Source of the DNA: Acetobacter sp. DsW_063
GTDB taxonomy: Bacteria; Pseudomonadota; Alphaproteobacteria; Acetobacterales; Acetobacteraceae
Direction: 5' to 3'
NCBI RefSeq assembly: GCF_002153745.1
Contig: NZ_JOPL01000005.1
Coordinates: 124,001 to 188,000 of the forward strand
DNA length: 64,000 bases
Position numbers and translations under genes: made by a program. Numbering within the stretch: position 1 is the first letter of the stretch; every line of letters begins with the position of its first letter. A model generated the notes under the pieces. That model was not told the DNA's origin. It did no database searches and saw only the letters and a program-made list of their open reading frames with translations. Below, in pieces: positions 51,149 to 53,940 of this stretch.

Positions 51149-52348
51149 TTAAAGGACCAGTTCCACGTCCGTGGCTGAACCGAAGAACTCGTAACAGATT
51201 TGTGCGGGCGGGAGCCCGATCTCACGCAATGTCCGGGTCATGTCTCGCATGAAGCCCTCTGGGCCGCACACGTAATATGTGGCGTCGCGTTCAACAGTGG
51301 CGCGCAGCCAGTCTGCCGTGATGCGGCCTTCGCGCGCTGTGACGCCTTTGGAGGGCGGCGCAGCGGCGTGCGTGTAAAACAGGTCGGCGGTCAACGCGCC
51401 TTCCGCTGCCCCGCGGCGAATATCTTCAACAAAAAGATCGTCCGCAGCCGAATGCGCCGCGTGGACGTAATGAATCTTCGCTGTCGGGCGCGTAGCCAAT
51501 TCTTGCAGCATCGAAATTACAGGCGTGGAGCCGACGCCTGCTGTCAGGAATACGGACGAACCGGATGGGCTGTCCGGCAACGTAAAATCCCCGGCCGGGT
51601 TGGAGACCAGCAGCGTCGCGCCTTCCTGAATCGAGTCATGGAGCCACTGCGACACTACGCCGCCGGGCGCGCGCCGGACGGTGATGCGATAATGATCCGC
51701 TCCGGGCGCGGAGGAGATGCTGTAGTTCCTGCGTTGCGGGCCGTGCTCAGGCAAATTCAGATTGAAGCTGAGATATTGTCCGGCTTTGTGGCGCGCGATT
51801 GGCCCGCCGTCCTGCGGCGTCAGTTCGAACGACGTGATTACAGGCGTTTCGGCTGTGCGTTTCCTGACGACGAAGGGGCGCCATCCGCGCCACCCGCCCG
51901 GAGCCGTTTCATGAGCGCGATAGATCTGCGCTTCGCGGCCTGTCAGGATATCGGCAAGGAACCAGTAAGCTTTGCCCCAGGCTTCGAGAATCGCGGGCGT
52001 CGCCGCCTCTCCCAGAACATGGCCGATCGCGCCGAGCAGGGCGTCGGCAACGAACGGGTAGTGCTCGGGAAGAATGTTCAGGCCGACGTGTTTCTCAGCG
52101 ATGCGTTCGACCATTCCGCCCAACGCGTCGAGCCTGTCTATGTTTCGCGCGTATGCGAGTACGGCTAGCGCAAGCGCCCTCGGTTGTTCGCCGTCTTTCT
52201 GATGCGACTGATTGAACAGGTCCCGTATTTCCGGGGTCGTCAGCAGGCGTCGATACATTTCGGTCATGATGGCGAGGCCGTGCGCGTCGAGCGCGGGCAC
52301 GGTGGCGCGAATTATGGCGCGTGTGGCGTCGTCCAGTGCGGTTGGCAT
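51149..52348 (-). CDS. hmp: Flavohemoprotein / nitric oxide dioxygenase
   Basis: A 399-residue Hmp that detoxifies NO to nitrate with O2 and NAD(P)H. The globin domain (1-140) has the proximal heme His at residue 87 (AEKHVGLN). The FAD domain carries RRNYSISSA (~207) and the NAD domain VFLTAGVGSTPVISML and YVCGPEGFM. It is divergent from nsrR with a 77-bp gap that holds two NsrR-like boxes, so NO-inducible expression is expected. Confidence 0.96.
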   Translation of the reverse strand: MPTALDDATRAIIRATVPALDAHGLAIMTEMYRRLLTTPEIRDLFNQSHQKDGEQPRALALAVLAYARNIDRLDALGGMVERIAEKHVGLNILPEHYPFVADALLGAIGHVLGEAATPAILEAWGKAYWFLADILTGREAQIYRAHETAPGGWRGWRPFVVRKRTAETPVITSFELTPQDGGPIARHKAGQYLSFNLNLPEHGPQRRNYSISSAPGADHYRITVRRAPGGVVSQWLHDSIQEGATLLVSNPAGDFTLPDSPSGSSVFLTAGVGSTPVISMLQELATRPTAKIHYVHAAHSAADDLFVEDIRRGAAEGALTADLFYTHAAAPPSKGVTAREGRITADWLRATVERDATYYVCGPEGFMRDMTRTLREIGLPPAQICYEFFGSATDVELVL

Positions 52349-52362
52349 GCGGCGATCCTTAT

Positions 52363-52385
52363 AAGGTGTATATATGGCACACCTT
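52363..52385. promoter_or_regulatory. NsrR-like operator, box 1
   Basis: A 23-bp inverted repeat AAGGTGT-N9-ACACCTT with perfect 7-bp arms, the same length and spacing as the NsrR consensus (AAGATG...CATCTT). It lies 14 bp upstream of the hmp start on the divergent side. Confidence 0.85.
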
Positions 52386-52402
52386 TATTGGCTGCCTTGG
52401 AA

Positions 52403-52425
52403 AAGATGTCAACGATGGATACCTT
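52403..52425. promoter_or_regulatory. NsrR-like operator, box 2
   Basis: AAGATGT-N9-ATACCTT with 5 of 7 arm positions matching. It ends directly at the nsrR ATG (52426) and its centre is exactly 40 bp from box 1, i.e. near-integral helical phasing. It would allow autorepression. Confidence 0.7.
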
Positions 52426-52878
52426 ATGGCCATGAAGCTGACCCTCCACACGGACTATGCGCTGCGCGTGCTGATTTTTCTGGGGTGCAACACGACGCGC
52501 CTCGCCTCGATACGCGAGATCGCCGACGCGTACGGGATATCGGAAAATCATCTGGTGAAGGTCGTGCACAGGCTTGGTCAGGGCGGTTTTATCGAGACCG
52601 TTCGTGGGCGGGGGGGCGGTCTGCGTCTCGGGCGTTTGGCGTCTGATATCGTGATCGGCGACGTGGTGCGGTACACGGAAGACGATCTCGCGCTGCTCGG
52701 CTGCATGAACGCTGAGGACCCTGCGGCTTGTGCGCTGATGCCTGCGTGTCGGTTGCGCGGCGTTCTGGGAGAGGCGCTGACGGCGTTCACGACAGTTCTG
52801 GAGCGTTACACTCTCGCCGACATCATCTCGCCTTTCGAGAGGGCGCGTCTGGGTGATCGTTCTGCGGGAGGGGGGTGA
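52426..52878 (+). CDS. nsrR: NO-sensing Rrf2-family repressor NsrR
   Basis: A 150-residue Rrf2 regulator. The winged helix-turn-helix is MKLTLHTDYALRVL...SIREIADAYGISENHLVKVVHRL. Three cysteines (93, 102, 108; C-x8-C-x5-C) form the Fe-S site that reacts with NO. The ATG at 52426 (MAMKL) is preferred; a second ATG at 52432 gives MKL. It is divergent from hmp, its expected target. Confidence 0.95.
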   Translation: MAMKLTLHTDYALRVLIFLGCNTTRLASIREIADAYGISENHLVKVVHRLGQGGFIETVRGRGGGLRLGRLASDIVIGDVVRYTEDDLALLGCMNAEDPAACALMPACRLRGVLGEALTAFTTVLERYTLADIISPFERARLGDRSAGGG

Positions 52879-53142: not shown

Positions 53143-53940
53143 ATGAAGCCAAGTCTATCGGGCGGTCGATCGATCGCGTTCGCCGTTTCCCTTCTTATGA
53201 CCGCAGCAATTCACGACGCTTGCGCCCGCGTGCCTGCAGGTTCGACCGGCAGGACGCGCGTGACTGCTATCGCCGCCGCCGTGGCGGACGCCGACCGACC
53301 TGCAGAGGACAAGGCGCGTGACGGCGTCCGCAAGCCGGCCGCGCTCCTCGCTTTCGCGGGCGTATCTTCGGGGATGAAGGTCGCCGATCTGTTGCCGGGC
53401 GGCGGGTATTTCACCCGACTGTTCAGCAATGTTGTAGGCAAGACCGGCCATGTTTACGCGGTGGTTCCTGCGGAGCTTCTGGCGAAGAAGCCGCAGGCGG
53501 GCGACGCCGTGCGTGCGATCGCCGCGCAGCCTTCGTTTTCGAACGTGAGCGTGATTGTCTCTCCGATCGCGTCATTCACGACGCCGGAGCCGCTGGATGT
53601 GGTCTGGACGTCTGACAACTACCACGACGTGTATGGTCAAGGCGCGGAGGTCGGTCTTGCGTTCGACAAGGCCGCGTTCGACGCGCTGCGTCCGGGCGGG
53701 GTGTTTCTGGTCATCGACCATGTCGCGGAGAAGGGGAGCGGCGCTGACGTGACGCACACCCTGCATCGGATCGACCCGGACCTGATCCGCAAGCAGGTGA
53801 CGCAGGCTGGCTTCGTGTTCGAGGCGCAGAGTTCAGTGCTGGCCAATCCGGCTGATACGCATCAGGTCGCGGTGTTCGATCCGTCGATACGCGGTCGTAC
53901 GGATCAGGTCGTGCTGAAATTTCGCAAACCGGCGCGCTGA
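53143..53940 (+). CDS. Exported SAM-dependent methyltransferase-like protein 1
   Basis: A 265-residue protein with an N-terminal signal-like segment (SIAFAVSLLMTAAIHDACA) and a class I methyltransferase-like domain. Motif I is VADLLPGGGYFTRLF, followed by VDVVWTSDNYHD-type motif II/III (LDVVWTSDNYHDVY) and VFLVIDHVAEKG. It matches COG4798 predicted methyltransferases. An export signal on a SAM enzyme is odd, since SAM is cytoplasmic; the segment could also be a membrane anchor. A homologue lies at 60885-61742. Confidence 0.8.
   Translation: MKPSLSGGRSIAFAVSLLMTAAIHDACARVPAGSTGRTRVTAIAAAVADADRPAEDKARDGVRKPAALLAFAGVSSGMKVADLLPGGGYFTRLFSNVVGKTGHVYAVVPAELLAKKPQAGDAVRAIAAQPSFSNVSVIVSPIASFTTPEPLDVVWTSDNYHDVYGQGAEVGLAFDKAAFDALRPGGVFLVIDHVAEKGSGADVTHTLHRIDPDLIRKQVTQAGFVFEAQSSVLANPADTHQVAVFDPSIRGRTDQVVLKFRKPAR

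Follow-up and report, generated by a model that had tools for sequence, protein, structure and literature searches.

The region between hmp and nsrR in the Acetobacter window (the whole 64,000-nt stretch of DNA that was analysed) carries two 23-bp inverted repeats that are probably a pair of NsrR operators laid on the overlapping promoters of the two divergent genes. Box 1, the proximal predicted operator (52363–52385), reads AAGGTGT-N9-ACACCTT and is an exact 7-9-7 dyad in which all 7+7 arm positions pair. It lies over the edge of the predicted hmp -10 element and the predicted hmp start site. Box 2, the distal predicted operator (52403–52425), reads AAGATGT-N9-ATACCTT with two mismatches, covers the predicted hmp -35 element and coincides with the predicted spacer and -10 element of nsrR. 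Both the starts and the centres of the boxes are 40 bp apart. An earlier sequence-only reading of this DNA had described two 23-bp boxes 40 bp apart between hmp and nsrR, the first a perfect inverted repeat. Its coordinates, distance and symmetry are confirmed, and its proposal that both boxes are NsrR-type operators is supported by their conservation and their association with hmp.

The hmp-nsrR locus and its regulator

The hmp gene (51149–52348, minus strand) encodes a 399-residue NO-inducible flavohaemoglobin with Pfam globin, FAD and NAD domains that scores 470.9 bits on NCBIfam NF009805 (cut-off 432). The nsrR gene (52432–52878, plus strand) encodes, from its conserved start, a 148-residue Rrf2-family regulator, assigned by its Rrf2 domain (PF02082, 115.6 bits in the Pfam search, cut-off 30), its PDB match and its invariant residues. 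The top PDB match is S. coelicolor NsrR (ScNsrR; 5n07). Asp8 is a cluster ligand in ScNsrR, and the alignment to the PDB match shows that D8 is common to the two proteins. D8, C91, C100 and C106 of the window regulator are unchanged across an alignment of ten homologues. The three cysteines sit where ScNsrR has Cys93, Cys99 and Cys105, as numbered in the available text of PMC9338935; in the ScNsrR alignment the third cysteine is paired, and the fit near the other two is loose. A loop of variable length (52702–52749) joins cluster cysteines one and two, with 8 residues in the window regulator and 25 in that of locus L041. The nearest named relatives of the regulator, among the 80 of 574 kept for comparison, come from A. 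sacchari (100% over 147 residues) and A. nitrogenifigens (98%), and these relatives place the window in Acetobacter. The regulator scores 126.5 bits on the NCBIfam NsrR equivalog model against a cut-off of 182, which is a naming threshold and not a biochemical one. Residues 1–132 of the proven S. coelicolor NsrR score only 91 bits on the same model, so the missed cut-off does not exclude NsrR. The regulator gene adjoins hmp in the window and lies divergent from it in 93 of the 130 loci examined, and its product is a probable NsrR-type repressor of hmp. A 265-residue open reading frame 3′ of nsrR (53143–53940) has no Pfam match at E 0.001 and, by eye, begins like a secreted protein.

The window's own genome assembly (68.9% complete; 3.03 Mb in 176 contigs) was searched for the box pattern, and the exact form of the pattern is present at a single place. 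Allowing up to three mismatches gives 44 palindromic places, made up of one with none, one with two (box 2) and 42 with three; the reversed pattern used as a control gives 80 places at the same limit. For this motif, and within the 68.9% of the genome represented, there is no site with two or fewer mismatches besides boxes 1 and 2, and thus none at iron-uptake genes. Dinucleotide shuffling of the intergenic region, repeated 20,000 times, produced a best box of at least 13 of 14 positions twice and a second box of at least 13 in no case, and a chance dyad is rejected on these shuffles and the genome-wide mismatch counts. A perfect 7-9-7 dyad of any sequence turned up in 19 of 5,000 shuffles, so the case is carried by consensus, pairing and conservation, not by the dyad alone. 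The boxes match the published NsrR consensus gATGyAT-N5-ATrCATc (available text of PMC1274295) at 10 of 14 positions for box 1 and 8 of 14 for box 2, and the family means are 10.8 and 9.5.

The location of these sites bears on the alternative that the regulator belongs to the iron-responsive RirA type and that the boxes serve iron regulation. The NCBIfam RirA equivalog model does score the regulator slightly above the NsrR model (132.1 versus 126.5 bits), as it does the Roseomonas-group relative L129 (122.8 versus 120.7 bits). Against this, the RirA cut-off (193) is missed like that for NsrR, on whose model the ScNsrR fragment itself scores low; the top PDB match is NsrR; and the closely matching sites in the 68.9%-complete genome assembly lie at hmp-nsrR and not at iron genes. 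A RirA identity was rejected on the cut-offs, the PDB match and the site location, and is most improbable.

Conservation of the box pair

A search of 61 genomes for the regulator gave a match in 54. Counting identical intergenic regions once reduced the 93 linked loci to 74 distinct regions: 44 in group A, where box 2 adjoins the nsrR start; 8 in group B, where box 2 is kept and the nsrR start is at least 20 nt away; 12 from Gluconobacter; and 10 others. A further 23 hmp genes were classed as stand-alone, meaning that nsrR is absent from the fetched DNA, about 1.5 kb on each side; one of them (L161) ends near a contig edge, and hmp-nsrR adjacency is possible there. Nine of the 23 were found through the strict box pattern itself in 49 genus genomes, and 14 were found by the Hmp protein in 12 Komagataeibacter genomes, in which 14 of 15 matches had loci. 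The strict pattern has a match in 31 of the 49 genus genomes, and 25 of the 29 loci fetched contain hmp or nsrR; it is missing from the other 18, several of which retain degenerate boxes. Komagataeibacter also supplied 14 regulator loci, 12 without an adjoining hmp and two (L080 and L083) with one. A free box search paired boxes wrongly in Gluconobacter and some other loci, and fixed-range scoring, with box 2 sought only 36–43 bp from box 1, was used instead. The loci are related, so the counts are not independent and the contrasts between groups outweigh any P value.

By fixed-range scoring both boxes match at least 11 of 14 positions in 50 of the 62 linked regions outside Gluconobacter and in 21 of the 23 stand-alone hmp regions, including 12 of the 14 found by protein. 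Upstream of hmp as a whole, the proximal box reaches this level in 93 of 97 regions and the distal box in 75 of 97. A second box of at least 12, placed 36–43 bp from the best box, is present in 47 of 74 linked regions versus none of 14,800 shuffles. Box 2 is weak or lost in all 12 Gluconobacter loci and in about ten other linked loci, and is therefore not essential everywhere. Judged by these sequence comparisons, the box pair belongs to the hmp promoter. Five of 36 genus relatives have no NsrR orthologue, one of these (G031) retaining a fragment, and four of the five have no hmp at E 1e-40. The remaining one, G012 (locus L185), has hmp and no box, the best match in 250 nt being 9 of 14; this is the expected direction in a single genome.

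Several other arrangements were seen in the set. In the 1.7-Mb G012 assembly TGATCTAAATCA lies upstream of hmp; it resembles an FNR-type dyad, and there may have been a change of regulator. Three loci (L027, L031 and L035) have nsrR-like genes without hmp and one perfect-consensus box about 70 nt upstream. Five genus genomes (L044–L048) carry NsrR-like paralogues that lack the three cluster cysteines, do not adjoin hmp and have in common a conserved stretch before the start. Six loci on contigs of 8–28 kb (L016, L017, L102, L103, L106 and L107) have identical hmp-nsrR intergenic DNA that spans three named Acetobacter species plus Gluconobacter japonicus, which suggests recent transfer.

Promoter elements, box spacing and the nsrR start

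Natural rearrangements split hmp from nsrR and separate the short elements that overlap in the window, where promoter-like sequences come and go with each gene. On the minus strand, hmp has a Shine-Dalgarno-like AAGGAT (52355–52360) 6 nt before its ATG, a predicted -10 element AATAAA (52384–52389), a predicted -35 element TTGACA (52407–52412) inside box 2 and a consensus-based transcription start near 52377. The -10 element stands 17 bp from the -35 and was picked by consensus match with a script that demanded at least 5 of 6 at -35 and favoured 17-bp spacers, so that its spacer counts are biased; two loci (L011 and L173) were mis-anchored by it. On the plus strand, the -35 element reads TGTCAA. 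This sequence or TGTAAA is present at the hmp -35 place in 58 of 62 linked loci, all 12 Gluconobacter loci and all 23 stand-alone hmp loci, and TGTCAA occurs within 45 nt of the start in none of the 12 stand-alone Komagataeibacter nsrR loci. It is read as the hmp -35 because it is present with hmp and missing at stand-alone nsrR. The predicted nsrR -35 element, TTGGAA (52397–52402, plus strand), lies directly 5′ of box 2, and the predicted -10 element, TACCTT (52420–52425), follows 17 bp later and ends 6 nt before the ATG at 52432. The YTGG motif beside box 2 is conserved in 41 of 44 group A, 8 of 10 other linked and 11 of 12 stand-alone nsrR loci. It is found in none of the 43 loci that have no nsrR start at that place, namely 23 stand-alone hmp, 12 Gluconobacter and 8 group B loci, with the unanchorable L135 counted as lacking it, and is read as the nsrR -35 on that contrast. 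As the elements follow hmp and nsrR separately, box 1 is placed on the hmp -10 and start, and box 2 on the hmp -35 together with the nsrR spacer and -10. The suggestion that box 2 could block polymerase agrees with this predicted placement; a block to ribosome loading, also suggested, is not needed where box 2 corresponds to the predicted nsrR spacer and -10.

The same overlap could mean that box 1 alone works as an operator and that promoter elements generate box 2 incidentally, with TGTCAA contributed by the hmp -35 and the right arm by the nsrR -10. Promoter elements do account for much of box 2, which is imperfect in the window and lacking in Gluconobacter and some others, and in the available text of PMC8175989 V. 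vulnificus has one site in use. Against this, the stand-alone hmp loci keep the right arm though no nsrR -10 is needed; the 14 found by protein retain on average 3.6 of 4 positions of the left AAGR and 5.8 of 7 of the right RCAYCTT (L171, which was mis-anchored in this arm-score analysis, included). Six group B Acetobacter loci (L022, L025, L030, L034, L036 and L037) in which box 2 ends 40–44 nt before nsrR, not 4–9, still carry both boxes at 10–13 of 14. A perfect 7/7 dyad stands at the box 2 position in L111, L114, L116, L129, L134 and L138, several of them distant relatives. A single working operator is thus unlikely, and a pair of operators is preferred.

The distance within the operator pair had been taken as near-integral helical spacing that suggests cooperative or looped binding. 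Boxes phased on the helix for contact between two NsrR dimers, or for looping, would fit the 38 of 50 clear linked pairs that are 39–40 bp apart, but clear pairs range from 37 to 41 bp in linked and from 36 to 41 bp in stand-alone loci (36–43 bp searched), and the main range from the free search of linked loci was the same, with a single weak pair at 47 bp. A distance of 40 bp corresponds to 3.8 helical turns of 10.5 bp each. The box distance equals the distance to the -35-anchored position in 68 of 71 clear pairs, and at 39 bp the -10 formed by the end of box 1 stands 17 bp from TTGACA. All 12 Gluconobacter loci, having lost box 2, retain TTGACA 38 bp out. Two 23-bp sites at 40 bp leave 17 bp free between them, and the bound NsrR dimer is about as long as its 23-bp site (available text of PMC9338935), so dimer contact or looping is not indicated. 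Helical phasing and looping were rejected on the distance spread and the Gluconobacter loci and are very unlikely; the box distance is best read as hmp promoter geometry.

Box 2 does abut an in-frame ATG at 52426, as the sequence-only reading had noted, but homologues share a start (MKLT/MRLT...) that corresponds to another in-frame ATG, at 52432. Among the intergenic regions listed, an ATG at the 52426 position is confined to the window, A. sacchari and A. nitrogenifigens; it was rejected as the start because aligned homologues begin at the position of 52432, which is probably the nsrR start. The spacer is then 83 bp, not the 77 bp first given, with 6 nt between the end of box 2 and the start codon.

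We infer that the predicted promoters are used and, with somewhat better than even confidence, that the nsrR mRNA is leaderless, with its 5′ end at or a few bases from the ATG. Pairing of group A nsrR leaders with the anti-Shine-Dalgarno sequence averages -2.0 kcal/mol versus -1.3 kcal/mol in shuffles, and that of hmp leaders -6.6 versus -2.0 kcal/mol. Some group A nsrR leaders pair well (L006, -10.8 kcal/mol; L041, -6.9 kcal/mol). The nsrR leaders of 17 loci that lack box 2 (11 from Gluconobacter) average -6.4 kcal/mol, and eight have AGAGGAG; the hmp start in Gluconobacter seems to be misplaced by about 12 nt, so the hmp pairing values there are unreliable. The profile of -10-like hexamers before nsrR in the 44 group A loci peaks at -7 with 2.36 of 6 (mean 1.66; 2.32 at -18), and the peak is clearer in Komagataeibacter, where TATATATCT lies shortly 5′ of the nsrR ATG. 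The group A peak is weak, and the stronger grounds for a leaderless mRNA are the missing Shine-Dalgarno sequence, YTGG and Komagataeibacter. In G. oxydans, 62 of 1,344 mapped 5′ untranslated regions are 3 nt or shorter (available text of PMC5756330).

Proposed switch and known NsrR systems

From this arrangement we infer NsrR binding and a response to NO. An Fe-S-loaded NsrR dimer on box 1 would cover the edge of the hmp -10 and the start site, and a dimer on box 2 would cover the -35 of hmp as well as the nsrR -10 and spacer, which belong to the opposite strand. Access of RNA polymerase would be barred twice at hmp and once at nsrR, so that NsrR would repress both the detoxifying enzyme Hmp and itself. 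NO would damage the cluster and release the dimers, switching on both hmp and nsrR, and removal of NO by Hmp would restore repression. The spacing of about 40 bp would be set by the hmp promoter, with one box built on the -35 and the other abutting the -10. A bolder form, which we advance tentatively and hold to be somewhat short of an even chance, is that box 2 is a single joint operator hiding two elements of opposite strands, the hmp -35 and the nsrR -10, and that unequal box strengths set separate NO thresholds. If so, one binding event at box 2 would tie NO detoxification to a leaderless repressor mRNA, and variation among species in the strengths of the two boxes would amount to an evolving two-step switch across Acetobacteraceae. 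Evolution has separated hmp and nsrR in several ways, so each short element can be assigned from sequence to one promoter or operator, and the assignments yield sharp predictions about the way in which divergent promoters accommodate a repressor site.

Searches of titles and abstract openings found nothing on NsrR with Acetobacteraceae hmp, Gluconacetobacter or Acetobacter, or on a flavohemoglobin-NsrR switch in Komagataeibacter. In the passages of PMC1274295 available, no NsrR is reported from alpha-proteobacteria except R. capsulatus E1F1, and those of PMC11014258 give loose 19-bp consensuses for Magnetospirillum NsrR and no footprint. The NsrR-hmp switch would be extended to many members of the industrially used acetic acid bacteria family.

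The protein resembles S. coelicolor NsrR, an Rrf2 protein with three cysteines and Asp8. The operators of the latter, as described in the available text of PMC4432287 and PMC9338935, are likewise 23-bp inverted repeats (11-1-11) and serve a small regulon of hmp genes and nsrR; their base consensus is not the same as that of the boxes. Multiple predicted NsrR sites also occur at the promoter of B. subtilis hmp, where they lie over it in tandem, and at Neisseria norB-nirK, a region that is likewise divergent and has two (PMC1274295); the passages found there describe no spacing or joint hmp/nsrR -35/-10 operator. The closest likeness is to V. vulnificus, where the divergent hmpA and nsrR promoters overlap and are both repressed via a single NsrR site that spans -2 to +18 of hmpA, to which box 1 corresponds in lying over the hmp start (available text of PMC8175989). 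V. vulnificus has one footprinted NsrR site plus Lrp and CRP sites, whereas the Acetobacter locus adds box 2 at the hmp -35 and has an nsrR leader without a Shine-Dalgarno sequence. The comparative sequence evidence gives good support to reading the locus as ordinary NsrR biology plus a second operator, in an arrangement widespread among Acetobacteraceae relatives.
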